This document shows, piece by piece, positions 4,460 to 19,799 of a stretch of DNA of 32,924 nt (position 1 is its first letter; each line of letters opens with the position of its first letter). The notes beneath the pieces were generated by a model. That model had not been told where the DNA came from. It did not search any database and saw only the letters and a program-made list of their open reading frames with translations. The DNA comes from Nitrospinales bacterium (GTDB lineage Bacteria > Nitrospinota_A > UBA7883 > JACRGQ01): positions 1-32,924 of the forward strand of contig JAHFEJ010000027.1 of the NCBI GenBank assembly GCA_023248535.1. Direction: 5' to 3'. The translations under genes were made by a program, and so were the position numbers.

Positions 4460-5800
4460 ATGGCTGAGGGAAAGTATCACGCGTGGTTTGAATGTTTCGC
4501 TGGATGCGGTGAGCGCTATCCGCTGAACGAGGTGGTCTACAACTGCCGCAAATGCGGTTCGCTGCTTCAGGTGGAACATGATATGGAGCAGCTCAAAAAG
4601 AAAACGGCGCGGCAGTGGATCGATCTTTTCCACAAGCGCAAGCACGGCAACCAGTGGCCTTACGGCGGCGGCGTTTGGAGCAAAAAGGAGTGGGTGCTCC
4701 CCACGGTGGAGAATGACAACATCGTATCCATGTATGAAGGGGAGAGCAACCTTTTCTGGGCCGACCGCCTGGGGCGCGAACTCGGCATTTCCGATCTCTG
4801 GATAAAACTCTGCGGCAACAGCCACACCGGTTCGTTCAAGGATTTGGGAATGACCGTGCTGGTTTCCGCCGTGAAGCAGATGATCGCCGAAGGAAAAAAC
4901 ATACGGGCCGTCGCCTGCGCCAGCACCGGCGATACCTCCGCCGCGCTGGCCGCCTATTGCGCCGCCGCCGGGATCACCCCTGTCGTGTTCCTTCCCAAGA
5001 ATAAGGTTTCGGTGGAGCAGCTCATCCAGCCCATCGCCAATGGCGCGCTGGTGATATCCCTCAAAACGGATTTCGACGGCTGCATGAAACTGGTGCGCGA
5101 AATAACCAAAAACGAGGAGATATACCTCGCCAACTCGATGAACTCGCTCCGCATAGAAGGGCAGAAAACGGTCGGCATCGAGATCGTTCAGCAGTTTGAT
5201 TGGATCCCACCGGATGTGGTGGTCATTCCGGGCGGCAATTTGGGAAACGTTTCGGCTTTGGGCAAAGGCTTCTTGATGATGGAAGAGCTTGGCCTCATCA
5301 AGAAGCGGCCCATGCTGGTGGTTGCCCAGGCGCGGAATGCCAACCCGCTTTACCTTGCTTACAGGAAAGGGTGGAAGAACTACCGCCCCGTGAAGGCAAA
5401 GACCACTCTTGCTTCCGCCATACAGATAGGCGATCCGGTGAGCGTGCAAAAGGCGGTAAAAACGCTGGAACAGTTCAACGGCATTGTGGAAGAGGCGAGC
5501 GAGAAAGAACTGGTGGAAGCGGCCGTGGCGGCTGACCGAACCGGCATGTACACCTGCCCGCATACCGGGGTGGCTTTAGCCGCCATGTTCAAGCTGGCGA
5601 AACGGGGCGTGATAAAGAAAGCAGACCGCGTGGTGGTTATTTCCACCGCCCATGGCCTCAAATTCTCCGATTTCAAATATAAATACCATCTCAACAAACT
5701 GCCGTTCAAGAGCGACAACCCCAACATGCCGGTGGAGACCGAGCCTAAACTCCCCGCCATCATGCGCGCAATCGACCGCCATTTGAAAAAGAAGCGCTAA
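4460..5800 (+). CDS. thrC: Threonine synthase (PLP-dependent, N-terminal zinc-ribbon-like Cys pairs)
   Basis: 446 aa; PLP-lysine motif SHTGSFKDLGM, ACASTGDTSAALAAYCAAAG, IPGGNLGNVSALGKGF, and CPHTGVALAA near the C-terminus. Confidence 0.88.
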   Translation: MAEGKYHAWFECFAGCGERYPLNEVVYNCRKCGSLLQVEHDMEQLKKKTARQWIDLFHKRKHGNQWPYGGGVWSKKEWVLPTVENDNIVSMYEGESNLFWADRLGRELGISDLWIKLCGNSHTGSFKDLGMTVLVSAVKQMIAEGKNIRAVACASTGDTSAALAAYCAAAGITPVVFLPKNKVSVEQLIQPIANGALVISLKTDFDGCMKLVREITKNEEIYLANSMNSLRIEGQKTVGIEIVQQFDWIPPDVVVIPGGNLGNVSALGKGFLMMEELGLIKKRPMLVVAQARNANPLYLAYRKGWKNYRPVKAKTTLASAIQIGDPVSVQKAVKTLEQFNGIVEEASEKELVEAAVAADRTGMYTCPHTGVALAAMFKLAKRGVIKKADRVVVISTAHGLKFSDFKYKYHLNKLPFKSDNPNMPVETEPKLPAIMRAIDRHLKKKR

Positions 5801-5813
5801 GCGTTTTTCGCGT

Positions 5814-5843
5814 CCTCCCCTTTTCAAGGGGAGGTGGGTTTTT
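5814..5843 (+). terminator. Rho-independent terminator after thrC
   Basis: CCTCCCCTT-TTC-AAGGGGAGG 9-bp perfect stem followed by TGGGTTTTTA. Confidence 0.7.
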
Positions 5844-5949: not shown

Positions 5950-7677
5950 ATGAATGGCATTCAGGAGATTGCGGCCCGGTTTAATTTCCCGCTGGTTAAT
6001 TCATTTACCGGCATCGCCGTCGGTGGGGGAAGCCTCTGTCTGGCCGATTTGAAACGTGACGGCGACGGCGGATTCCGCCTCAACTATGCCGCCGATTTGC
6101 CGCTTGAAGGGCAAAATCCGTTTTCCCCCGACGTGGTGCCGATGCTGACACGGCTTGCCCGCGAAAATAATTTACGGGGGCGCACTGCCGCCATTTTGGC
6201 AACCGGCCGGGGCCTGCGGGTCAAAATTCTTGAAATGCCCCGTATGGAGCGCGATGAACTGGTGGCATCGCTCAGGTTCACCGAGGCCGAGGCATCGCCG
6301 TATTCCATGGATGACGCGGGGCTGGATGGTTTTATCCTGCCGGGCGGAGCCGATGGCCGGATGCCGGTGTTGATGGCGGCGCTGGAGCGTGGCGAGGCGG
6401 CCCGTTACTATCAGTCGATTTCGCTTTCGCCGTTCCGCCCAATAGCTCTCACGGTGGTTCCCGCGGCGCTTGATGCCCTGCTGGCGCATTCCCGCGTTAT
6501 TGATGCCAGTATCCCGGTAACTTTTGTCAACATTTCGAATTCGAGCACCGGCATTTATATTTTCGAGGGGGGCGGCATCAGGTTTACCCGTGACATAGGT
6601 TTTGGCGGCGACAGCTTCATAGACGCCTTGATGGGCGAGTACGATGTGGCGGGGGTCAAGATAACCGTTTCGCGCGGGGAAGCGCAAGCCCTTGCCGCCT
6701 TTTTTGGAATGGGGCGCGGCGAAAATCACGGCATACCCGGACCACTCGGGATTAATGGGGAAATGGCGCTGGCGCGCATGCAACCGGCGTTGGACAGGCT
6801 GGTGACAGAGTTGGGCCGTTCCCTTGACTATTATCGCAATGAGTTCCAACGCGATTCCGCGACATCGGTTTATCTTGTTGGTTCTGCCGCCCGGATAAAG
6901 AATCTTGTCGCATACCTTGCCGATGCGCTCGGCTGCCGGTTGACGGTATACAACCCGTTTGACGACTTCATCGCGGTGGATGGCTCGTTGCATGACGCGG
7001 CGAAGGAGAGCGGCGCGGCGTATGCCGTGGCGGTGGGAGTGGCGCTGGATCAGGGGAGGCGGATCAACCTCCTGCCGGAAAAGTTGCGTTGGTCGCCGGG
7101 GAATTGGCTGCGGGCACGGCTGCCGTCCGCGGCGGCGGCCCTGTACATCATGCTGGTGGCGGCGCTCGGTCTGGCGGGAGCCGCATACCGCAAAGACTTG
7201 AATATGCAAATTGCCGCTGTCGAGAAAAAGATCGCCGGTTTCAAACAGGCGCATGAAGCCAATTTCGTTATCGAGTCAAGCATGAACGATATTCGCGAAG
7301 AGATCGGAAGGATTGATGCCCGCAAGGCGGCATACCCGGAGTTGAAAGGGCGCGGTATAGAATGGCAGGGGCTGTATGGGGAAGTTGGGAAGCTGATACC
7401 GGATGATATGGCGCTTGACCGTCTTGTCTTCCACTTCGGCGACCAAAAAGAGTATGCGGCCGATGGTGCGATGTACGGCAGGCAGGCCCTGTTTGAAGGG
7501 CGCATCCGCGGCGGGCCGGACGAGCAGGTGAAAACACTGGAACGGTTCCTGGCAATGATCCGTGAATCCACATTTTTCACCCACGCCACACTTATCAGCA
7601 CCCGCAGGGTGGAGGATGGAGGCAATTCATATTTAAAATTCACGCTGGGAGCGGACATCAGGGGAGGGGCGAAATGA
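5950..7677 (+). CDS. PilM-PilN fusion protein (GspL/MshI-like type IV pilus / T2SS inner-membrane platform)
   Basis: 575 aa; N-terminal ~360 aa actin-like PilM domain (VTFVNISNSSTGIYIFEGGGIRFTRDI, VYLVGSAARIKNLVAYLADALG), then the PilN motif RINLLPEKLR, a TM helix and a periplasmic coiled-coil/ferredoxin-like region in one ORF. Confidence 0.8.
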   Translation: MNGIQEIAARFNFPLVNSFTGIAVGGGSLCLADLKRDGDGGFRLNYAADLPLEGQNPFSPDVVPMLTRLARENNLRGRTAAILATGRGLRVKILEMPRMERDELVASLRFTEAEASPYSMDDAGLDGFILPGGADGRMPVLMAALERGEAARYYQSISLSPFRPIALTVVPAALDALLAHSRVIDASIPVTFVNISNSSTGIYIFEGGGIRFTRDIGFGGDSFIDALMGEYDVAGVKITVSRGEAQALAAFFGMGRGENHGIPGPLGINGEMALARMQPALDRLVTELGRSLDYYRNEFQRDSATSVYLVGSAARIKNLVAYLADALGCRLTVYNPFDDFIAVDGSLHDAAKESGAAYAVAVGVALDQGRRINLLPEKLRWSPGNWLRARLPSAAAALYIMLVAALGLAGAAYRKDLNMQIAAVEKKIAGFKQAHEANFVIESSMNDIREEIGRIDARKAAYPELKGRGIEWQGLYGEVGKLIPDDMALDRLVFHFGDQKEYAADGAMYGRQALFEGRIRGGPDEQVKTLERFLAMIRESTFFTHATLISTRRVEDGGNSYLKFTLGADIRGGAK

Positions 7678-8351
7678 GAGATGCCCTTCTTGATAAGTGG
7701 AATCGGTTTTCGAGGCGTGAAAAGTATTTTTGTGTGGCTGCGGGATGTGTCTTTATGTTGTATGCGGCTTATGCGTTCGGGTTGGAAGGCCTGATCCAGG
7801 ATATTCTGGATAAAAAGGCACGTCTTGCGCATCTCAATACCGAATATAACGACCTACAGGCTGGCAACCGGCGCCAGGATGAGTTGAAGAAAAAGCTGGC
7901 GATGCTCAGGCTGGAGCTTTTGAGGAAAAAGAATGAAAAGCATGAACTATTTGAGGGCTCTCAATCGCGGCTTCCCGTCGAGACGCTTCTGCATGAATTG
8001 CGTCAAACGGCCGGTACCATGTCCCTACAACTGGCGGATATGGACATAACAACCGGTGTGGTTTCCGGAACCGGTGGGTTCCCCACCGGTGCGGCTGTGC
8101 CTGAAAGGGTAAGCTTCACGGTAAGTAAAATTGCCCTTACCTATCGATCCGGCTACCGCGATTCCGTTAACTACTTACTGAAGGTGATGGATTTGCCGTA
8201 TGGCATTTCTGTAAAAACCGTGGAAATGACGCGGAACAATAAGGGGGTAAGTGCAATAGATGGCTCGAAAAAGAAAAATGACGAAGGCGGCATTCCCAAT
8301 GGGGAGAGGCCGCTGAATACCAGGCTGGGGCTGGAGATTTTTTACAGGTAG
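7674..8351 (+). CDS. PilO/GspM-like inner-membrane protein
   Basis: 225 aa; N-terminal cytoplasmic tail (WNRFSRREKYFCVAA), one TM, coiled coil, periplasmic domain; ATGA overlap with the preceding gene. Confidence 0.65.
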   Translation: MRDALLDKWNRFSRREKYFCVAAGCVFMLYAAYAFGLEGLIQDILDKKARLAHLNTEYNDLQAGNRRQDELKKKLAMLRLELLRKKNEKHELFEGSQSRLPVETLLHELRQTAGTMSLQLADMDITTGVVSGTGGFPTGAAVPERVSFTVSKIALTYRSGYRDSVNYLLKVMDLPYGISVKTVEMTRNNKGVSAIDGSKKKNDEGGIPNGERPLNTRLGLEIFYR

Positions 8352-8354
8352 GGT

Positions 8355-8687
8355 ATGAAAAAGACGATCTTAGGACTTTTATTACTTTCACTCCTGTCGG
8401 GAGCGGGTTTTGGTACGGAACTTGAAATGTCCAAGTTTCGCAACCCCTTTGATTTTGGAGGGGGAAGCGTTGATCAAGGAACTGTTAAGCGCAAATCGGC
8501 CTCACGTTTAGGCATGGTTGTGAATATGGGCGGCAATCTAGTTGCCTACATAGATTCTGTCCCTCACCGGGTGGGGGATGTTATTGATGGTGCACGGGTT
8601 ACAGATATTACGCTGAAGTACGTAGTGCTGGTTTCCCCGAAAAAGACATGGAGAATATATGTTGAACCGAACAAGGAGGAAGAGTAG
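8355..8687 (+). CDS. PilP/GspC-like periplasmic protein
   Basis: 110 aa; signal peptide, FRNPFDF segment, then HR-like GNLVAYIDSVPHRVGDVIDGARVTDITLKYVVL; position between pilO-like and secretin genes. Confidence 0.6.
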   Translation: MKKTILGLLLLSLLSGAGFGTELEMSKFRNPFDFGGGSVDQGTVKRKSASRLGMVVNMGGNLVAYIDSVPHRVGDVIDGARVTDITLKYVVLVSPKKTWRIYVEPNKEEE

Positions 8688-10398
8688 CCCGGCGCACGGT
8701 GCGCTACTATTGATATTGCTCCTGTCCGTTTCATCCTGTGCCACCTCCCCAGCCAAAAATATTGTAGCTAATCCCGCAAAAAGTGACGCCAATCCTCCCC
8801 AGATACAATCGCAAACGGAAAATCTGCCGCCACTTGTAGCTTCGGCAGCCCCGACTTCCGCCAAAGATGAATCGGCCAAACCATATCTGCTAAAAATGAG
8901 TGACGGGGAGAGCCGGTCTGCGGAGAACCGCCAGCGGCGTGAAAACCTTTTTTCGTTCCATTTCAAGGAAATCAGCCTTGATGCGGTGGTTAAGATGTTG
9001 AGCGACCGGGGGCGCAATTTTCGCTATGTCATACATCCCGATGTTGGCTCACGCAAAGTGCTGGGGCTTTATCTTGAGGACATCACATGGCGCGAAGCGC
9101 TTGATACCATCGCCCGTTTGCACAATCTGATTATTACCGAGGAACACAATCTGGTGGTGATTAATACCGCCGAAAACTATATGGCCGCTCAGGAGCAGGA
9201 TGCCAAGCGTGTCCGGCTGTCGCGGGAACGGGCCGAGGCCGAACGTTCCATGCTGACGGCATCGTTCAAATCAAAGCAGATGCAGGCCGATGAACAGCGC
9301 ACGTTCCGCTCTTTTAAGCTGAAATATGCCGAACCGAATGAGGCGAGAGCTTATCTGGAACGGATTTTTAGCGGTTCCGGTGAAGCGCCTCCCGGCGACC
9401 TCCCCCCCATCAGCGGCGCTCCGGCTGCGGCGAGGGAGCAAGAGGGCGCCCGGATAATATTCAGCACGTTCAGCAAGGCGTCGATTTTAACTGCTTATGG
9501 AACGCCGGCCGATATAAATGACGTGGCGCGCCGCATTGATGAAATCGACGTGCCCCAGCAGCAGATATTTATTGAATCCCGTATTGTGGAAGTCAGCCGC
9601 AACCATAGCCGTTCGCTGGGCGTTCAATGGGGCGGCATTGGGGCGCGCTCATCGGGTTCTCCATTTCCTGCCACTATCGGTGTTGCCGGAAGCGCTCAGG
9701 TGGGAAGCGCGGCGTTGGTGCCGACCGGGCTTACAGGCAACACAGGCGGCGGAACGTTATCAAACGGATATGCCATGGGCACTGCGAACGGCGTAGTGGA
9801 TCTGCCGGCGGTGGATCCCTCGAATGCCGGAGCGCTGCCCGCCGCTGTAAGCATTGCGTTGAGCGATTCGGCGGGCACATCGGCGCTCAATCTACGCTTC
9901 AGCGCGTTGGAGCGCGATGGTAAGGGGAAAATCCTGAGCAACCCGAAAATAATAACCATCAACGGCGTGAAGGCAAAAATCGCCAGTGGCCGCGAAATCC
10001 CGTATCAGCAATCGGCCGGCGGCGCATCGGGAGCGACCACCGTGGCGTTTAGGAACGCGGTTATCTCGCTTGAGGTAACCCCCTTCGTCACGCCGGACAA
10101 CAGGATTTCCCTAAAAATACTTGCCCATAAGGATGACGCTGATTTTACCAACCCTGTTCAAAGCGTTCCTTCGATTCTTACCCGGTCGGTTGAGACCAGT
10201 GTAGTGGTCACCGATGGGGGGACTGCCGTTCTGGGGGGCGTATTCGAGAACCTTCAGACGGGCACCGACCGTGGAGTGCCATATCTTTCAAAAATACCCA
10301 TTATTGGCTGGCTTTTCAAGGGAAGCGAGGATGTGGATAACGAGAAGGAACTGCTGATATTCATCACGCCGCGTATTGTAAGGGGAAATTTCACATGA
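8659..10398 (+). CDS. Secretin (PilQ/GspD/MshL family) with predicted lipoprotein signal peptide
   Basis: 579 aa; lipobox LSVSSC; N-domain FHFKEISLDAVVKMLSDRGRNFRYVIHPDV; secretin domain IFIESRIVEVSRNHSRSLGVQWGG...TVAFRNAVISLEVTPFVTPDNRISLKI...TDGGTAVLGGVFEN...VPYLSKIPIIGWLFKGSE...ELLIFITPRIV. Confidence 0.93.
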   Translation: MLNRTRRKSSPAHGALLLILLLSVSSCATSPAKNIVANPAKSDANPPQIQSQTENLPPLVASAAPTSAKDESAKPYLLKMSDGESRSAENRQRRENLFSFHFKEISLDAVVKMLSDRGRNFRYVIHPDVGSRKVLGLYLEDITWREALDTIARLHNLIITEEHNLVVINTAENYMAAQEQDAKRVRLSRERAEAERSMLTASFKSKQMQADEQRTFRSFKLKYAEPNEARAYLERIFSGSGEAPPGDLPPISGAPAAAREQEGARIIFSTFSKASILTAYGTPADINDVARRIDEIDVPQQQIFIESRIVEVSRNHSRSLGVQWGGIGARSSGSPFPATIGVAGSAQVGSAALVPTGLTGNTGGGTLSNGYAMGTANGVVDLPAVDPSNAGALPAAVSIALSDSAGTSALNLRFSALERDGKGKILSNPKIITINGVKAKIASGREIPYQQSAGGASGATTVAFRNAVISLEVTPFVTPDNRISLKILAHKDDADFTNPVQSVPSILTRSVETSVVVTDGGTAVLGGVFENLQTGTDRGVPYLSKIPIIGWLFKGSEDVDNEKELLIFITPRIVRGNFT

Positions 10399-10562
10399 TC
10401 GGGCAAAGCAACGTTAAACTGATGGTGCGTTTGGTTCTGGGGGCGGCATTATTGGTATTGATCCTGTGGGGAAGCGGCACGGATACCGCCGCTTCAAAAG
10501 AACCAAAAAATAATTCTGTGCGGCCGTTTCACAGAACCGCCGCAAATATATCCCAACGATGA
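10395..10562 (+). CDS. Small (55 aa) predicted membrane/secreted protein, translationally coupled on both sides; absent from the ORF track
   Basis: Manual translation: MIGQSNVKLMVRLVLGAALLVLILWGSGTDTAASKEPKNNSVRPFHRTAANISQR*. ATGA overlap with the secretin stop (10395-10398) and ATGA overlap with the next start (10559-10562); one hydrophobic segment. Confidence 0.65.
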   Translation: MIGQSNVKLMVRLVLGAALLVLILWGSGTDTAASKEPKNNSVRPFHRTAANISQR

Positions 10563-11920
10563 AACAGGACACTCTTAACCCCATAATGATCCGTTTGATC
10601 CTCGCTACGGGGATATTGTTACTATTTACCTGGGGGGCAAACGCCGCCGAGCCGGGGGGGATGAAAAGCCTGGGTCAAATGCAGGGCGTCATAGAAGCGG
10701 GGGAAAAAAATATTGTCCTTTTCTCCCCGGGTGACCGGGTGAAGCTGAAGTTGAAAAACCCCGAAGCGGTGATGCTGGGGGACCGGATGGATATTTACGA
10801 GCCGGTCAATACCGGCATGGTGGATGGCCGTGGTGATGAATTGCTTGGCTGGATCGGACGTTTGGTCATCATCAGTGTTGATGGTGAAATGATTTTTGGT
10901 TCGTTGGAGGCGGCTAAGCGGGAGGTTACCGCCGGAAGCCATTTGGCTTCCACGGCGGAGGACGCAACGCGGCAGGGACGATATTTTGGACTCATGCGGA
11001 TGATGACCGCTTCGATGGCTGATCCCACACACGGTTTAATAACCGTGGCCCTGCCCGATGTTACCGACGGCGCGGGAAACGTAACGCGCCTTTCGGAAGA
11101 GGCCTATTTTCTGTTGCGTCACGCACTCTGTGGAAGACCGCAATTCCATTGCGTAGAGCGGGGCGCGTTGCGCGCCTTGCTTGGTGAATATGATGTCGCC
11201 ACCGGTATCTCCGCCGGGGTGTTGGTGCGCGGCAAGGCGGCCTCGCGGTTCGGGGCGGATTGGTTCGTCACCGGGCGGCTTGTTCCAGCGGATGCCTTGA
11301 GCAACACTTCGCATGACGGGGCGTTTCCCTTTCTTTTGACGGTTACGGCGTATGATTTGAACAACGCCAGAGTAGTTCTCACTTCCACCTACCCGGTTTC
11401 CGGGGCTGAATTCCATTCTGTTAACGGTGCTCCGGATGAGGTGTTGGCGGCATACCGCCCCACCCGTCATGCCTATCTTAGAATAGCGGTTGATGAGGGA
11501 ATGACGCTTTCGGGTCGGAGGGTAGATCATCTTTTTCTCGCGCCTTTGGACGAGTATGTGGACATGGAATACCGCCGCCACATCGGGGGTGTTTCGGGTG
11601 GCCGGGTAGTCATGGGAAACATTGAGATGGCTCTTGATGGCAAACAGCTTCGGCGTGGAGCCGATGGGGTGTATTATGATGACGTAATCAGCGCGGGAAG
11701 CCATATTCTGTGTGTTTCAGCCGTTCCCAGCCTTGTGGGACGGGGACAACCGGCCATAGGCAGGCGGCTCGATAAAAGCGTTGAATTGGATATCGCCCCG
11801 GATGCTGTATTTAACAGTCAAGTGGTGGTGGGCATTGTTGGAAGACAGGGGTTGATAGCGGTAGATACCCGGTTCATGAAAGAGCATCCATTCGAGGGAG
11901 TTTTGGCTGATGGCAGATAA
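10559..11920 (+). CDS. Periplasmic protein with CsgG/FlgT-like features, secretin-operon associated
   Basis: 453 aa; signal peptide ending ANAA; FlgT-C/LysM-like N-part (GVIEAGEKNIVLFSPGDRVKLKLKNPEAVMLGDRMDIYEP); CsgG-like ...FHCVERGALRALLGEYDV...AASRFGADWFVTGRLVP. Confidence 0.5.
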   Translation: MKQDTLNPIMIRLILATGILLLFTWGANAAEPGGMKSLGQMQGVIEAGEKNIVLFSPGDRVKLKLKNPEAVMLGDRMDIYEPVNTGMVDGRGDELLGWIGRLVIISVDGEMIFGSLEAAKREVTAGSHLASTAEDATRQGRYFGLMRMMTASMADPTHGLITVALPDVTDGAGNVTRLSEEAYFLLRHALCGRPQFHCVERGALRALLGEYDVATGISAGVLVRGKAASRFGADWFVTGRLVPADALSNTSHDGAFPFLLTVTAYDLNNARVVLTSTYPVSGAEFHSVNGAPDEVLAAYRPTRHAYLRIAVDEGMTLSGRRVDHLFLAPLDEYVDMEYRRHIGGVSGGRVVMGNIEMALDGKQLRRGADGVYYDDVISAGSHILCVSAVPSLVGRGQPAIGRRLDKSVELDIAPDAVFNSQVVVGIVGRQGLIAVDTRFMKEHPFEGVLADGR

Positions 11921-12656
11921 GAACGAAGCCCCGCGTCGCCCGGCCCCGGAAGTCTCGCGGGGTGCCGGGGACAATTCGCCATTTTCCATACCATTGGAAA
12001 AAGGGATGGACATCTTGACCGAATCCACCGCAAAAAAGGAAACGGCTCCTTCCAAAACTCCTGAAGAGCCGAAACGGGATGGAGCCGCGCAAGAATCAGC
12101 GCTGCCGGAAAAAACAAAGCCAGTGGCGGCGGCTTCCTGCCACGGTATTCGTATGTGGAAATTGTTGTTGGCCATGTTCCTCTTTCCCTTCTTCTTCAAT
12201 CTCGGTTCGGAATTATATCTGTTGGCCCGCACCGCTTTAATGGCGCAAATGGGAGGTTTACAGGCCGCTCACCAACCTCCGGCCCAGCAGCCAACGGGAA
12301 AAAGCGAATCCGACAAGGTGATCGATAGTCTCGCGCTGGTAATCGCCAATCAGGAAAAACTGTTGCGCGATACCGGTCAAAGGGTGGTAATTATCCATCC
12401 CGATTATGCTGGCACTTTTTCGTATGATGATGAAAAAGGGAAGGTGAAGGAGTTGGCCGGTATCGATCTTGATGACCCGATTACCGGTTCTGACAAGATA
12501 GGTAAAATAAAGTCTTCCGAGTTGTTAAGCGCCATCATAAGATCGTTTGACAGGATTTTGCTTAACGCCGCCCAGAATAACCTTTCCGAATTTAGGCTGA
12601 AAAACACTCTGGAAGCCAAAAAACAAGCCCTCAAACGCCTGCAGGAACTCCGCTAG
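11910..12656 (+). CDS. Single-TM protein of unknown function, last gene of the secretin operon
   Basis: 248 aa; charged/Pro-rich N-terminal cytoplasmic segment, TM MWKLLLAMFLFPFFFNLGSELYLL, periplasmic part; start overlaps the upstream stop. Confidence 0.6.
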   Translation: MADKNEAPRRPAPEVSRGAGDNSPFSIPLEKGMDILTESTAKKETAPSKTPEEPKRDGAAQESALPEKTKPVAAASCHGIRMWKLLLAMFLFPFFFNLGSELYLLARTALMAQMGGLQAAHQPPAQQPTGKSESDKVIDSLALVIANQEKLLRDTGQRVVIIHPDYAGTFSYDDEKGKVKELAGIDLDDPITGSDKIGKIKSSELLSAIIRSFDRILLNAAQNNLSEFRLKNTLEAKKQALKRLQELR

Positions 12657-13020: not shown

Positions 13021-13081
13021 AAAGCGGATGTCCTTTCACGTATCCTGACGGGTACGGCGGAGGTATCCGCTTTCTTTTTTT
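13021..13081 (+). terminator. Rho-independent terminator with nested hairpin
   Basis: AAAGCGGAT...ATCCGCTTT outer stem enclosing CGTATCC-TGAC-GGGTACG inner stem, followed by CTTTTTTTCC. Confidence 0.7.
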
Positions 13082-13163: not shown

Positions 13164-13649
13164 ATGCGGCTTATTGTTTTTGTTTTGATGTCCGTTCTGG
13201 CCTTGACTGCAATGGGTGGCTGGGGGCAGCGTAGCGCATGGGCTCAAGAAGGAATCGGCAGGGTGAAGCCGTCAATGGCGGCAGGCCGTCAAAAAGAGCC
13301 TACGGCAACTCTGTTTTTTAGCGGCCGCTTGGCGCGTGTCGGTCTGGGCAAGGAGCAAAAGGAGAAGATACGGGCCATTTTTGTTGCGCACGAAGCCGTA
13401 TTGGCTGGCGCCAGCGCCCGGTATATAGAAAAGCGCCGCCAGTTACGGATGCTGATTGACGATCCCGGCGCTGTCGAAGATGCCATCAGCGGACTGGCGG
13501 AGGAGATCGGCCAGATTGAGGCGGAACTTGCTATTGAAAGGAATAGGGTATTAAAGGAAGTGTCGGGCTTGCTGACACCTGAGCAGGCGGCGAAATTTCA
13601 AAAAGGCCGTTCGGCGGCCTATAAAAAAGAAAGCGGGCAACCCCGGTAG
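13164..13649 (+). CDS. Spy/CpxP/ZraP-like periplasmic protein
   Basis: 161 aa; signal peptide (GQRSAWAQ), helical body (GKEQKEKIRAIFVAHEAVL...RRQLRMLI), LTPEQAAKFQK signature. Confidence 0.65.
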   Translation: MRLIVFVLMSVLALTAMGGWGQRSAWAQEGIGRVKPSMAAGRQKEPTATLFFSGRLARVGLGKEQKEKIRAIFVAHEAVLAGASARYIEKRRQLRMLIDDPGAVEDAISGLAEEIGQIEAELAIERNRVLKEVSGLLTPEQAAKFQKGRSAAYKKESGQPR

Positions 13650-13675
13650 TGCGGCGGATGGCGGGGATTTAGGAA

Positions 13676-14239
13676 ATGGATTCCGCCGAGGCGGGCGTCC
13701 CGGATGAACGGCTTGTAGAGCAGGTTCGCGCGGGAAATGGCGCGGCGTATGAAGAATTGATCCGACGCCATAAACAAAAGATTTTTTGCATGGCGGCACG
13801 GATTGCGCGGGATTCTTTGGAGCTTGAAGAGATCGCTCAAGAGGTCTTTGTAAAGGCCTATGAGAAGCTGGCAAGCTATCGGGGCGATGCGCCGTTTGGG
13901 CACTGGTTGGCGCGAATCGCCACCAATACCTGTTACGATTATTTGAGGAAGAGGAAACAGCGGAGGGTGGAAGTCTCCGTCGATTTGCATGAATGGAAGC
14001 TGGAGGCGCCAGCGGAAACGCAGGGAACCGAGCCGAAAGAACTGGCGGCATTGGCCCGCGCCTTGGAGGGGTTGCGTCCCGATGAACGCATGGTTCTGAC
14101 CCTTTTGGAATTGGAAGAAAAAAGCGTTAAGGAAACGGCTTATATCATGGATATAAGCGAGGGGAATGTAAAAGTGCGCGCCCATCGCGCGCGCAAGGCC
14201 CTTAAAGTACTGCTGGAGAAGGAACTGAATCATGGATGA
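13676..14239 (+). CDS. RNA polymerase sigma factor, ECF subfamily
   Basis: 187 aa; region 2 (YEELIRRHKQKIFCMAARIARDSLELEEIAQEVFVKAYEKLASYRGDAPFGHWLARIATNTCYDYLRKRKQ) and region 4 (LRPDERMVLTLLELEEKSVKETAYIMDISEGNVKVRAHRARKALK). Confidence 0.95.
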   Translation: MDSAEAGVPDERLVEQVRAGNGAAYEELIRRHKQKIFCMAARIARDSLELEEIAQEVFVKAYEKLASYRGDAPFGHWLARIATNTCYDYLRKRKQRRVEVSVDLHEWKLEAPAETQGTEPKELAALARALEGLRPDERMVLTLLELEEKSVKETAYIMDISEGNVKVRAHRARKALKVLLEKELNHG

Positions 14240-14528
14240 CGCGAAGTTGGATCGGCTGTTACAGGCGTTGCGCGGACGGCCGGTGAATACCGCGCGCATC
14301 GAGTATGGTTTTGAAGCGAGGATGATGGCGGTTTTGCGCCAGCGGCGGGCCGAGGAGCCGGCGGTTTTTTTCATGGCGTGGAAGCTTGCGCCAATGTTCC
14401 TTGCCTTGCTTCTGGCGGTGGGGGGATGGGTGTATGCCGTAGCCAGTCCGCAGGGAGGCGCTCACATCACAGCAATCGGCGCCGGGCACGAAGAGGTTCA
14501 AATGGTTCGTTATATAACGGGCGACTGA
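14232..14528 (+). CDS. Small membrane protein, putative anti-sigma factor (CnrY-like position)
   Basis: 98 aa; overlaps the sigma gene end, soluble N-terminus followed by one TM (APMFLALLLAVGGWVYAVA). Confidence 0.6.
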   Translation: MDDAKLDRLLQALRGRPVNTARIEYGFEARMMAVLRQRRAEEPAVFFMAWKLAPMFLALLLAVGGWVYAVASPQGGAHITAIGAGHEEVQMVRYITGD

Positions 14529-14530
14529 AC

Positions 14531-14938
14531 GTGAATTCAAAACTGAAGGGGATTGCCGGAGTTCTGGTGATTTTTCTGGTCGGTGCCGCCGCCGGATGGA
14601 TCGGCGCGCGTCATTGGTATAAAGAGCGGCTGGAAGGCCTGATGCGGGGAAACCCGGAGGCGTTTCATGAAGTGATCGTGAGGCGGCTGAACAAGAATCT
14701 AAGCCTCGATGCCGAACAGTTGAACAAGCTGCGGGACATATTAAATCAGTCGCACGAAGAAGTCGCCGCCGTTCGGGAAGACCTTTCCCCGGAAATACAG
14801 GAAATCCTTGAAGAGACCAAAAGCCGCGTGGAATCGATCTTGACGCCAGCGCAAATCGAGGCGTTCAGGCATTTGACCGAAAAGGATCACGCCGGTAACC
14901 AGATGGCAACCGGTTCACCAGCTGCGTCAGGCCGGTAG
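14531..14938 (+). CDS. Membrane-anchored Spy/CpxP-like periplasmic protein (CnrX-like position), GTG start
   Basis: Frame of track ORF 14378..14938; GTG at 14531 gives MNSKLKGIAGVLVIFLVGAAAGWIGARHWYKERL...LSLDAEQLNKLRDILNQSHEEV...ILTPAQIEAFRHL, a TM anchor plus Spy-like helices with LTPAQ. Confidence 0.6.
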   Translation: MNSKLKGIAGVLVIFLVGAAAGWIGARHWYKERLEGLMRGNPEAFHEVIVRRLNKNLSLDAEQLNKLRDILNQSHEEVAAVREDLSPEIQEILEETKSRVESILTPAQIEAFRHLTEKDHAGNQMATGSPAASGR

Positions 14939-15181: not shown

Positions 15182-17023
15182 ATGAAATCAGATCAAGATT
15201 TGCTGATAACCCGATCATGCAGTAAGTATGGAAACGATCCTGGACGGGTTATCGATATTCTGTGGGAAATCCAAAAATCTCTGGGATGCGTAAGCTACGA
15301 GGCGATGGAAAAAATCGCCGCTACGATCAATACCAGCCGTGTGCAAATCGAGGGGATCGTCTCTTTCTACTCATTTTTTTCTGAAACGCCAAAAGGCAAA
15401 ATCATTATCCGCCTTTGCGACGATATAGTCGACCGCCATGCAGGGGTTGAACAGATCGCCGTGGTATTCTCGGAAGAATTGGGCATCGGTATCGGCCAGA
15501 CCTCCCCTGACCGGGAGTTTTCGCTGGAGTACACCCCTTGTATTGGAATGAGCGACCAGGCGCCCGCCGCGCTTGTTAACGATGTTGTAGTAACCTCCTT
15601 AACGCCGGATTCCGCCAGGGAAACCGCCCGGCGGTTAAAGGCAAATCCAGATACATCAAAGCTGGTGGCGGCGAAAGGCGACGGTAACAACGGCCATCGT
15701 CTCATAAACACCATGGTCAAAAATAATATCCGGTTAAAAGGCGAGGTGATACTGGCCGATGGGATTCAAGCCGAGGCCGGTTTGAAGAAAGCCCTGTCCA
15801 AAACGCCGCTTGAAGTCATTCAGGAAGTCGTTGAATCCGGCCTGCGGGGACGGGGTGGCGCCGGTTTTTCCACCGGTGAAAAATGGCGGCTTGCCCAAAA
15901 GGCCCTGGCAAGCAAGCGGTTCGTCATATGCAATGCCGATGAGGGGGAGCCGGGAACTTTCAAAGATCGCGTACTTCTGACCGAACGCGCAGACCTTATA
16001 TTCGAAGGAATGGCCATCGCCGCTTACGCGATCGGAAGCGATAGCGGCATTTTATATTTACGCGCGGAATACGCCTATCTCCGTCCTTTTCTTGAAGCTG
16101 TTTTGGAGGAAAGGCGGAAATCCGGTTTATTGGGATCCGCGATCTGCGGGAAGAAGGATTTTAGCTTCGACATCAGGATACAACTGGGCGCAGGGGCTTA
16201 TATTTGCGGTGAGGAGAGCGCTCTCATTAGTTCCTGCGAAGGGTTGCGGGGCGAGCCGAAAAACCGTCCTCCCTTCCCGGTCGAAAAAGGGTATCTCTCC
16301 AAACCGACGGCGGTCAATAACGTTGAAACGTTCTGTTGCGCGGCCCGAATCATGGATCGCGGTTCTTCGTGGTTTGCCGGTATCGGCACGAAGGCCAGCC
16401 ACGGGACGAAACTGCTGAGCGTCAGCGGCGATTGCGCAAAGCCGGGCGTGTATGAGGTGCCGTATGGAGTGGAAGTCGCCGCGTTGCTGGAGATGGCGGG
16501 GGCGGAAGACACAGCCATTGTACAGGTGGGGGGCGCCAGCGGTGACATGATAGGCCGGAGGAGTTTCAACCGGAAAATATGTTTTTCAGATTTAGCCACG
16601 GGCGGGGCAATTACACTGTTCAACTCCAGCCGGAATGTATTGGCCATCGTTGATTATTATCTGGAATTCTTCGCCCACGAGAGCTGCGGTTATTGCACGC
16701 CATGCAGGGTGGGAACCGTGTTTTTACGGGAGAGAATCCAGAAAGTGATGCATGGATTCGCGGACAAAGCGGATCTGGAATATCTGCAAGAACTTGGCAA
16801 GACAATTATGATCACCAGCCGGTGTGGATTGGGGAGTTCGGCTCCGAAATGCGTATTACATTCAATTGCGCAGTTTCCGCTCGTGTATTCCTCGCATTTG
16901 AAGGAAAGCCTCGACGGCCTGCAACCAGGATTCAATATTCAGAAAGCGCTTGAAGAATCCCGCAGGATCGCCAAACGGAAGTCGATGATTTACGATCCGG
17001 TGTTCGGCAATGAAGGTGAATAA
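15182..17023 (+). CDS. hoxF: NAD-reducing [NiFe]-hydrogenase diaphorase subunit HoxF (NuoE-NuoF fusion)
   Basis: 613 aa; N-terminal NuoE-like domain; NuoF domain with RGRGGAGFSTGEKW, CNADEGEPGTFKDR, GAGAYICGEESALI, ESCGYCTPCRVGT and a later SRCGLG cysteine. Confidence 0.92.
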   Translation: MKSDQDLLITRSCSKYGNDPGRVIDILWEIQKSLGCVSYEAMEKIAATINTSRVQIEGIVSFYSFFSETPKGKIIIRLCDDIVDRHAGVEQIAVVFSEELGIGIGQTSPDREFSLEYTPCIGMSDQAPAALVNDVVVTSLTPDSARETARRLKANPDTSKLVAAKGDGNNGHRLINTMVKNNIRLKGEVILADGIQAEAGLKKALSKTPLEVIQEVVESGLRGRGGAGFSTGEKWRLAQKALASKRFVICNADEGEPGTFKDRVLLTERADLIFEGMAIAAYAIGSDSGILYLRAEYAYLRPFLEAVLEERRKSGLLGSAICGKKDFSFDIRIQLGAGAYICGEESALISSCEGLRGEPKNRPPFPVEKGYLSKPTAVNNVETFCCAARIMDRGSSWFAGIGTKASHGTKLLSVSGDCAKPGVYEVPYGVEVAALLEMAGAEDTAIVQVGGASGDMIGRRSFNRKICFSDLATGGAITLFNSSRNVLAIVDYYLEFFAHESCGYCTPCRVGTVFLRERIQKVMHGFADKADLEYLQELGKTIMITSRCGLGSSAPKCVLHSIAQFPLVYSSHLKESLDGLQPGFNIQKALEESRRIAKRKSMIYDPVFGNEGE

Positions 17024-17047
17024 TAGCAAGTACCGGGAGAAAATGCT

Positions 17048-17779
17048 GTGAGTGATGTCATTATCTTCAAAATAGACGGCGTTGAAGTCAGTGCCAAACC
17101 CGGACAGACAATTATGAACGCCGCCGACGAGGCGGGCATTTACATCCCCCGCCTGTGCGATGTTGAAGGGCTGGAACCGCAGGGGAGTTGCCGCGTATGC
17201 ACGGTGAAAGTCAACGGCAGAACCGCGGCCGCGTGCACACAACCCGCGGCCCCCGGAATGGTAGTGGAAAACGACACGCTGGAAATCCGGAACTGCCGCC
17301 GGGATATTGTCCGGATGCTGTTTCATGAAGGGAACCACCTCTGCCCGTGCTGCGAGGCAAGCGGAAGGTGCGAGCTTCAAGCCTTGGGGTACCGGCTTGG
17401 GATTTTACAGCCCGACAAGTACCCCTATTTGCAGCCGGTGCGGCCCGTGGATGCTTCCCACCCGGACATTATGCTGGATACCAACCGGTGCATCCGGTGT
17501 GGCCGCTGCATCAGGGCATCGCGGCATCTGGATCACAAAAATGTATTCGGCTATATCGGGCGGGGTATATACAAACAGGTCGGGGTGAACGGAAAAAATC
17601 TGGCCCAGACCGATGTTCATGTTGACGATCATGCCGTGGCGCCGGGCATCTGCCCGGTCGGCTGCATTATCCAGAAACGGCGCGGGTTTTACGATCCGGT
17701 CGGCCAGCGCAAGTTCGATGTGAACCCCATCGGAACGGAAATAGAAAAGCACCTGAAAGATGCGGGAGGCAAAAAATGA
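17048..17779 (+). CDS. hoxU: NAD-reducing hydrogenase diaphorase subunit HoxU (NuoG-like), GTG start
   Basis: 243 aa; 2Fe-2S motif CDVEGLEPQGSCRVC...C, HEGNHLCPCCEASGRCELQ, CIRCGRCIRASRH...GICPVGC. Confidence 0.9.
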   Translation: MSDVIIFKIDGVEVSAKPGQTIMNAADEAGIYIPRLCDVEGLEPQGSCRVCTVKVNGRTAAACTQPAAPGMVVENDTLEIRNCRRDIVRMLFHEGNHLCPCCEASGRCELQALGYRLGILQPDKYPYLQPVRPVDASHPDIMLDTNRCIRCGRCIRASRHLDHKNVFGYIGRGIYKQVGVNGKNLAQTDVHVDDHAVAPGICPVGCIIQKRRGFYDPVGQRKFDVNPIGTEIEKHLKDAGGKK

Positions 17780-18336
17780 AGAAAAAGAGGATATCCACCA
17801 TATCCCTTGCCGGCTGTTTTGGCTGCCACATGTCGTTACTTGATATTGACGAGAGGATTTTGGAACTTGTCAAGCTGGTGGAGTTCGACCGTAGTCCTGT
17901 TAACGACCTAAAGAGATTTAAGGCGCGGTGCGATATCGGGTTTATTGAGGGTGGTTGCTGCAACGAGGAAAACGTGCACACGTTGCGGAAATTCCGGAGG
18001 AATTGCGATGTGCTGGTCGCCGTCGGTCAATGCGCCGTGATGGGCGGATTGCCGGTGATGCGGAACGCCATTATGCATTCTGATGATCCGTTGCGGGAAT
18101 GCCTGGAGACCGCCTACCTGAACAGTCCGTACGTGTATAATCCGACAAACGATATCCCCAATGACCCCGCGTTGCCGTTGATCCTCGACAAAGTGTACAC
18201 CTGCGCCGAAGTGGTGAAAATGGATTACCAGATTCCGGGATGTCCGCCGTCGGGCGACATATTGTGGCAGGCGATCGTCGCTCTTTTGAACGGAAGGCCT
18301 TCGGATTTGCCAAGCGAGGTAATCAAGTTTGATTAA
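17776..18336 (+). CDS. hoxY: NAD-reducing hydrogenase small subunit HoxY
   Basis: 186 aa; LAGCFGCHMSLLDID, IEGGCCNEENVHTLRKFR, VGQCAVMGGLP, IPGCPPSGDILW. Confidence 0.93.
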   Translation: MKKKRISTISLAGCFGCHMSLLDIDERILELVKLVEFDRSPVNDLKRFKARCDIGFIEGGCCNEENVHTLRKFRRNCDVLVAVGQCAVMGGLPVMRNAIMHSDDPLRECLETAYLNSPYVYNPTNDIPNDPALPLILDKVYTCAEVVKMDYQIPGCPPSGDILWQAIVALLNGRPSDLPSEVIKFD

Positions 18337-18359
18337 ATATATGTATCGGGGATTGCACA

Positions 18360-19799
18360 ATGGCTAAGACAAGGGTCATCGAGATAGAGCCGATAACGCG
18401 CGTGGAGGGACATGGGAAAGTCACCATCCACCTTGACGACCACAATAATGTGCGTGAAGCGCGGCTGCATGTTGTCGAATTCCGCGGGTTCGAGCGATTT
18501 ATTTGCGGCCGCCCGTATTGGGAAGTCCCGGTAATCGTCCAGCGGCTATGCGGCATATGCCCGGTAAGCCACCATCTGGCCGCCTCAAAAGCGATGGATA
18601 TGATTGTCGGGGCGAAAAAACTAACGCCAACCGCTGAAAAGATGCGCCGGTTGATGCATTACGGCCAAATCATGCAAAGCCACGTGTTGCACTTTTTCCA
18701 TCTGGCCTCGCCGGATCTGTTGTTCGGCTTTGATTCCGATCCTGAATCGCGCAATGTCATCGGCGTTATAGACAAAATGCCTGAGTTGGCCGTTCAGGGC
18801 GTTATGATGCGCAAATTCGGCCAGGAGATCATCAAGGCTACCGCCGGAAAGAAGATACATGGAACCGGCGCGGTGCCCGGTGGTGTGAACAAAAACCTTT
18901 CCATCGCGGAACGGGACGGTTTTTTACGCGATATCGGAAAGATGAAAAAATGGGCGCATGGCGCACTGGACATCGCACGGAAATATTCCCTCGATAACCT
19001 CATGGCTGTACAGGCATTCGCGGTATTCAACTCCAGCCACCTTTCACTCGTGCGCGAAGATGGCGCTTTGGACCTTTATCATGGGAACTTGCGGGCTTTG
19101 GATGCCGGGGGCAACATTATTTTCGATCAGGTCGATTACCGCCGTTTTAATGATTACCTTATGGAAGAGGTAAAGCCTTGGTCGTACATGAAGTTCCCGT
19201 TTATTAAATCCCGCGGGCACATTGACGGATGGTACCGCGTGGGGCCGTTGTCGCGCATGAACACCATCGGGTTTATCGATACCCCGGAGGCCGGCAAAGC
19301 GTTGGCCGAATTCAAGAACCTTACCCGTGGGATGCCAAACCATATGTCGCTGGCCTATCATTGGGCACGGATGATAGAGACCTTGCACTGTGTGGAAAAA
19401 ATCGAAGAATTACTTAATGATCCCGACCTTCAGGGAACCGATCTGATGGTCAAAGGGGAGCGCGCGGGGGAGGGGATAGGCGTGATTGAAGCGCCACGCG
19501 GGACATTATTCCATCATTATAAAGTTGATGAAAACGACTTGGTGACATTCTGCAACCTGATAGTTTCCACCACCCACAATAATGAGGCAATGAACCGCGC
19601 CGTCAAAAAAGTGGCTCAGGATCACATTTCAGGAAAACCAAAAATAACGGAAGGAATGCTGAACCACGTTGAAGTCGCGGTACGGGCATATGATCCTTGC
19701 CTTTCGTGCGCAACGCATGCGATCGGGAAAATGCCGCTGGCAATCGAACTGTATGACGCTGATGGCAATCTTATCGACCGGAACAGCCAATATCTTTGA
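18360..19799 (+). CDS. hoxH: NAD-reducing hydrogenase large subunit HoxH ([NiFe])
   Basis: 479 aa; L1 motif RLCGICPVSHH, L2 motif DPCLSCATH followed by a 26-aa C-terminal extension. Confidence 0.95.
   Translation: MAKTRVIEIEPITRVEGHGKVTIHLDDHNNVREARLHVVEFRGFERFICGRPYWEVPVIVQRLCGICPVSHHLAASKAMDMIVGAKKLTPTAEKMRRLMHYGQIMQSHVLHFFHLASPDLLFGFDSDPESRNVIGVIDKMPELAVQGVMMRKFGQEIIKATAGKKIHGTGAVPGGVNKNLSIAERDGFLRDIGKMKKWAHGALDIARKYSLDNLMAVQAFAVFNSSHLSLVREDGALDLYHGNLRALDAGGNIIFDQVDYRRFNDYLMEEVKPWSYMKFPFIKSRGHIDGWYRVGPLSRMNTIGFIDTPEAGKALAEFKNLTRGMPNHMSLAYHWARMIETLHCVEKIEELLNDPDLQGTDLMVKGERAGEGIGVIEAPRGTLFHHYKVDENDLVTFCNLIVSTTHNNEAMNRAVKKVAQDHISGKPKITEGMLNHVEVAVRAYDPCLSCATHAIGKMPLAIELYDADGNLIDRNSQYL

Follow-up and report, generated by a model that had tools for sequence, protein, structure and literature searches.

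MSH systems are almost always encoded in one locus, and mshA, mshE, mshG, mshL and mshM are mandatory in their published model (PMC6668835). In V. cholerae, the extension of the MSHA pilus is driven by MshE and controlled by c-di-GMP (PMC9815625). Here, a secretin operon is compared with this type of pilus and with the type IVa pilus and type II secretion systems (T2SS). The operon lies in a window of 32,924 nucleotides (the whole stretch of DNA analysed, contig JAHFEJ010000027.1) from the metagenome-assembled genome (MAG) of a Nitrospinales bacterium (2.87 Mb, 132 contigs, 98% complete). Judged from its sequence, the operon quite probably provides the envelope-spanning components of a second type IV pilus, similar to MSHA, and the motor and pilins of this pilus would be encoded at scattered loci.

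Organization of the operon

The operon is a run of seven open reading frames (Table 1), all of them at the positions given in the preliminary description. Neighbouring genes overlap at all junctions but one, five of the six, and a 3-base gap separates the genes at the remaining one. The compactness of this run and the two terminators described around it were both borne out, the upstream hairpin by a terminator scan and the downstream one by reading the sequence (AAAGCGGAT...ATCCGCTTT with a run of T after it), the scan giving its inner part. Between the operon end and the second terminator there is a gene for a 66-aa protein, also present in the relative G001, which is probably not an operon member. 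The gene order is preserved in a dozen relatives, again without adjoining motor or pilin genes, and therefore it is not due to chance. The window had been described as devoid of pilin, motor ATPase and PilC/GspF genes; in fact, the Pfam scan detected none among the window genes that it covered, and genome-wide searches for secretins, ATPases, PilC proteins and prepilins located only the secretin in the window.

Table 1. Features of the operon and its surroundings (positions in the window).
Feature	Position	Strand	Remarks
PLP-dependent, threonine-synthase-like enzyme (upstream gene)	4460-5800		the intrinsic terminator at 5814-5834 belongs to it
Terminator hairpin	5814-5834	+	9-pair stem, 3-base loop, T-rich tail; terminator scan
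PilM-PilN fusion, 575 aa	5950-7677	+	
PilO/GspM-like inner-membrane protein, 225 aa	7674-8351	+	
PilP/MshK/GspC-type periplasmic linker, 110 aa	8355-8687	+	by position and profile match to MSH-type loci
Secretin, 579 aa	8659-10398	+	
Single-pass membrane protein, 55 aa	10395-10562	+	
FlgT/CsgG/TsaP-type periplasmic protein, 453 aa	10559-11920	+	
Bitopic inner-membrane accessory protein, 248 aa	11910-12656	+	
Small secreted Lys/Ala/Glu-rich protein, 66 aa	12793-12998	+	own Shine-Dalgarno; 136 bases past the operon
Downstream terminator hairpin, T tail	~13021-13073	+	read from sequence; scan gives inner part 13049-13071

Beyond the second terminator, positions 13164-14938 hold genes for an LTXXQ/CpxP-like metal-resistance protein, an ECF sigma factor and downstream membrane proteins, which are kept behind the operon in the genus, and positions 15182-19799 hold a four-gene NiFe-hydrogenase-like cluster (HoxF/U/Y/H-type).

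Pfam and NCBIfam recognised PilM and the secretin among the operon products, with weak matches to PilN and GspM. The proposed fusion of PilM and PilN was confirmed: the PilM domain matched PilM_2 (1.1e-17) and the PilM structures of the PDB (best 7.6e-44), and residues 371-573 correspond to the canonical PilN family of the class (hhalign 97%). This layout, with a cytoplasmic actin-like PilM domain, one transmembrane (TM) segment and a periplasmic PilN domain, is GspL/MshI-like. Similarly, the label of the PilO-like protein holds, since it aligned with the canonical PilO family of the class (hhalign 96%) and matched T2SSM (8.7e-4). The PilP/GspC-like label of the 110-aa protein stands in part. 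It is backed by the gene position and by the profile of this protein, which matches the PilP-position genes of MSH-type loci in the genomes G011, G028 and G315 (2e-10, 3e-11 and 4e-09), but there was no match to canonical PilP (hhalign 2.6%); a PDB sequence search with the profile gave nothing significant.

The secretin was correctly named, with Pfam matches to Secretin (3.9e-49) and Secretin_N (1.1e-5). It barely passes the cut-off of the NCBIfam PilQ model TIGR02515 (288.4 versus 284.35 bits) and fails those of GspD (184.4 versus 351.35 bits) and MshL (TIGR02519, 119 versus 250.2 bits). No AMIN domain was found in it, and its best PDB chains by sequence search were PilQ structures (9x0w and 6ve2). 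The secretin is a predicted lipoprotein (lipobox VSSC, Cys27), and its orthologs carry a cysteine in a lipobox-like N-terminal context.

Proteins encoded behind the secretin

The 55-aa reading frame has the same length in three species of the genus (55, 55 and 55 aa), with both overlaps retained, and its nucleotide changes cluster at third codon positions; it is therefore a real gene in the genus. The protein was seen in this genus only, and the operon of the relative G008 leaves no space for it. Its TM stretch is similar to the N-terminus of the 453-aa protein.

The 453-aa protein comprises a signal segment, a beta domain (residues ~43-131), a CsgG-like alpha/beta domain (~135-285) and a C-terminal beta domain. 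The CsgG/FlgT-like character first suggested for it is backed by transitive Pfam evidence, residues ~150-250 matching proteins of the CsgG/FlgO family, and by a fold search with its AlphaFold2 model (pLDDT 83). The top Foldseek matches were the LPHT ring chain 8z5n and FlgT (3w1e), followed by LpoB, CsgG and the TsaP chain 6ve2_O (Foldseek probability 1.00); whole-chain TM-scores are low (~0.2), so that the likeness is at domain level only. A PDB sequence search with the profile of this protein gave nothing significant. Among 336 genomes, full-length orthologs were found in the class only, and a scan of public genome contigs returned a single match, with 69% identity, from the nearest relative, whose MAG bears the label Nitrospinales bacterium.

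The structure 6ve2 is a PilQ-TsaP complex in which TsaP sits on PilQ. Since this PilQ is one of the top two PDB matches of the window secretin, a periplasmic collar can be predicted: by analogy with TsaP on PilQ, and relying on the modelled fold, the 453-aa protein probably encircles the secretin as a periplasmic ring. The likeness to TsaP and to FlgT of the flagellar H-ring lies in the domain folds (6ve2_O, 3w1e and 8z5n). On the other hand, TsaP binds the secretin and has a LysM domain next to its FlgT-like domain, whereas Pfam found no LysM domain in the 453-aa protein, which also differs from TsaP and FlgT in its extra C-terminal beta domain and in the position of its gene directly behind the secretin. 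A literature search found no paper on a FlgT/CsgG-type gene within a PilMN-secretin operon. Should the 453-aa protein act as a collar of the secretin, it would link the FlgT (flagellar H-ring), TsaP and CsgG-like folds in the stabilisation of outer-membrane pores.

Orthologs of the 248-aa protein are present in G001-G004, G008 and G010 and none was recognised in other families, so it was seen in the host family only. Its model is poor (pLDDT 58). It is a lineage-specific membrane accessory protein.

Motor and pilin genes elsewhere in the genome and their co-inheritance

Genome-wide searches of the host MAG revealed four secretins and, among the motor ATPases, five of the GspE/PilB type and two of the PilT type. 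They also gave eight domain matches in four PilC/GspF proteins and some fourteen prepilin motifs above the family cut-off. These genes were assigned to systems by NCBIfam and by their neighbourhood. The canonical type IVa pilus is distributed among contigs C95 (PilM), C13 (PilN-O-P-Q), C69 (PilB), C35 (PilT), C2 (a second PilT and PilC) and C44 (PilA), and the canonical T2SS is on C108 and C122. The PilB on C69 (L068:3515-5713) carries a C-terminal CRP-like (cNMP-binding) domain at residues 608-725. A second T2SS-like set seems scattered: C8 encodes GspC/E/F, C9 an orphan GspD and C89 pilins of the GspH/I/K type (L064, L071 and L147).

The preliminary description had left room for this being simply the normal pilus secretin operon, as would be expected with exactly one pilBC/pilin set and no other secretin. 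The genome instead holds several sets of pilB, pilC and pilin genes outside the window, and four secretins. Its canonical pilMNOPQ set is a different one, split between C95 and C13, which makes the window operon a second set.

Apart from the window operon, what stayed unassigned was an ATPase with a PilC protein (C84), a TfpB-like ATPase standing alone (C92), a group of four pilins (C113) and a single isolated pilin (C29). The C84 ATPase has an MshEN domain (6.2e-19), exceeds the cut-off of the c-di-GMP motif model NF053729 (57.5 versus 38 bits) and falls below the GspE cut-off (525.8 versus 630.25); its partner is of the GspF type. The C113 minor-pilin cluster, whose pilin 1 shows a weak GspH match, has no dedicated major pilin alongside. 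The C29 pilin (G000:C29:7414-7788) is MshA-like, with no family model match confirming MshA; among the matches listed, pilins of this type were those of the genus, G004 and G008; two similar pilins exist in G005, from which the other parts are missing.

Co-inheritance was assessed in 24 genomes from the class and the phylum, 14 of which encode the PilMN fusion. A C84-type motor is present in all 14 and in G006, and missing from nine of the ten genomes without the operon. These 15 motors form one clade (support 100/99), with the best matches of all other genomes falling outside. The C113 pilin 1 follows the same distribution, being found in 13 of the 14 operon genomes and in G006 and absent elsewhere in the class (nine of the ten genomes without the operon), and its neighbours are recognisable at most of its places; the operon genome with no match to this pilin, G002, is 78% complete. 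Fisher tests, uncorrected for relatedness, gave 7.6e-6 for operon with motor and 7.2e-5 for operon with pilin. The family and genus taxonomy labels suggest joint losses in about five independent lineages.

Two genomes deserve attention here. The canonical pil contig of G006 ends within pilQ. In G004, pilQ-aroB is followed closely by the window-type operon; hence, the operon of G006 is probably in an assembly gap. G010 has lost the motor, the pilins, PilMN and most of PilO, the PilO remnant is fused to PilP, and about 50 residues are missing from the C-domain of the secretin, with the 453-aa and 248-aa genes intact (G010:C75, L078:8712-12835). This is a joint decay of operon, motor and pilins. 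Canonical PilM is present in genomes without the operon (G010, G012, G015, G016, G022 and others), with the full canonical set in G012.

The operon, the C84-type and the C113-type loci are physically linked in no genome of the class. Outside the phylum, G028 and the single-contig genome G315 (family f12) carry the order four pilins-PilMN-PilO-PilP-secretin-MshM-TPR protein. The first three of these pilins match the class profiles p1-p3 (8e-31, 5e-9 and 2e-22 in G028; 4e-34, 5e-14 and 3e-32 in G315), and the fourth matches the p4 profile in G315 only. As these pilins stand directly before PilMN-PilO-PilP-secretin, they provide an independent tie of the C113-type pilins to the window-type operon.

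Other candidate partners were rejected. The type of the C92 TfpB-like ATPase is widespread among the matches listed, and the GspE-like pair on C8 belongs to another clade. MshM is not co-inherited with the operon, mshM-like genes being absent from G001, G004, G013 and G017-G020 and present in G005 and G010.

Comparison with known systems and alternative readings

In composition, the machine comes closest to the MSH (MSHA) pilus. Both share an MshE-like ATPase with a c-di-GMP motif and a PilC-type platform, which are the mandatory mshE and mshG components, a PilM/N/O/P-like set with a short PilP, a secretin without AMIN and four minor pilins. The C29 pilin could be the lone MshA-like major pilin, its co-inheritance being partly seen. 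Nevertheless, although it would work in the manner of an MSH/T4a pilus, the system is not classed as an MSH member because its secretin fails the MshL cut-off, the mandatory MshM is not co-inherited and there is no single locus, the parts being spread over three or four loci, with contiguous pilins in family f12 only. In addition, there is no mshN-type TPR gene beside the operon within the class, and the operon carries the FlgT/CsgG/TsaP-type gene, unlike MSH systems. With the type IVa pilMNOPQ set it has in common the PilM, PilN and PilO domains, the PilQ-level secretin score and the gene order, but PilM and PilN are fused, PilP is not recognisable as canonical, AMIN was not found, there are extra 3' genes and the canonical set exists separately in the host genome. 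The GspL-like fusion layout, the GspM match and the GspH-like pilin recall type II GspL/M/C/D, although the secretin and the ATPase are under the GspD and GspE cut-offs and the canonical T2SS is separate.

In the proposed machine, PilMN, PilO and the PilP-like protein would constitute the inner-membrane alignment complex and the secretin would be the outer-membrane pore. The C84 pair would provide the c-di-GMP-type, MshE-like extension ATPase and the PilC platform, C113 four minor pilins of the GspH/I/J/K or MshC/D/O/P type, and C29 a candidate MshA-like major pilin. The 453-aa protein would form the periplasmic ring round the secretin, and the 248-aa protein would act as the membrane accessory. 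Control by c-di-GMP, as for MshE in V. cholerae, is to be expected because the C84 ATPase carries an MshEN domain.

Of the two possibilities contemplated in the preliminary description, the co-inheritance of the C84 pair and the C113 pilins, together with the pilins adjoining the homologous operon in family f12, supports that the missing parts are encoded elsewhere. The other one, a stripped-down trans-envelope machine with no motor or pilins, would agree with the lack of such genes in the window and with G010, which retains the secretin, 453-aa and 248-aa genes. However, the tight co-inheritance with motor and pilins speaks against it and the truncated G010 secretin looks decayed, which makes this reading extremely improbable. 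It is also very unlikely that the operon is an alternative outlet for the canonical type IVa filament and uses the motor and pilins of that pilus (PilB on C69, PilC on C2 and PilA on C44): these parts are in the same genome and both secretin operons are neighbours in G004, yet genomes that lack the operon have canonical sets too, whereas C84 and C113 track it.

The operon could also be a type II-like secretion core, with a short pseudopilus exporting proteins instead of a surface pilus. PilMN would then be GspL, PilO would be GspM, the PilP-like protein would be GspC-like and the C113 pilins would be GspH/I/J/K, in agreement with the GspL/M/C/D-like layout, the T2SSM match of the PilO-like protein, the weak GspH match of pilin 1 and the absence of a dedicated major pilin beside the minor pilins. 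We consider this unlikely, as the secretin passes the PilQ cut-off and fails that of GspD, the motor is MshE-like and under the GspE cut-off, and the canonical T2SS is separately present on C108/C122.

Regarding the proposed MSHA-like pilus, its scattering over several loci and its own FlgT/TsaP-type pore partner are unusual, and the machine is otherwise fairly ordinary. These data suggest that this uncultured lineage has a surface pilus under c-di-GMP control. More tentatively, it may be a type IV filament of the class's own that arose from an MSH-like ancestor, in which MshM and MshN were lost, the operon-encoded ring protein took over the assembly or anchoring of the secretin, and the loci became permanently scattered; we regard this origin as possible, with less than even confidence. 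Scattered filament systems are easily overlooked by locus-based annotation: alone, the window operon resembles an incomplete machine and the motor and pilins resemble orphans, and co-inheritance rejoins them.

Some other arrangements were observed in these genomes. At G004:C6 (L076), the canonical pilMNOPQ-aroB run and the adjoining window-type operon face each other. In several families, a short secretin-like protein (~280-320 aa) is encoded next to the four-pilin cluster, in divergent orientation (L185-L189); genomes without C113-type pilins also have short matches to the secretin domain. Finally, G011:C4 (1653-1665 kb, L154) and G021:C303 (L136) each hold a separate MSH-type locus that includes a secretin and an ATPase of its own. 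The G021 locus was discarded as a linked copy of the window-type system, its ATPase grouping with that of the G011 locus. The G011 locus also includes MshM and a TPR-type gene, and G011 has both systems.
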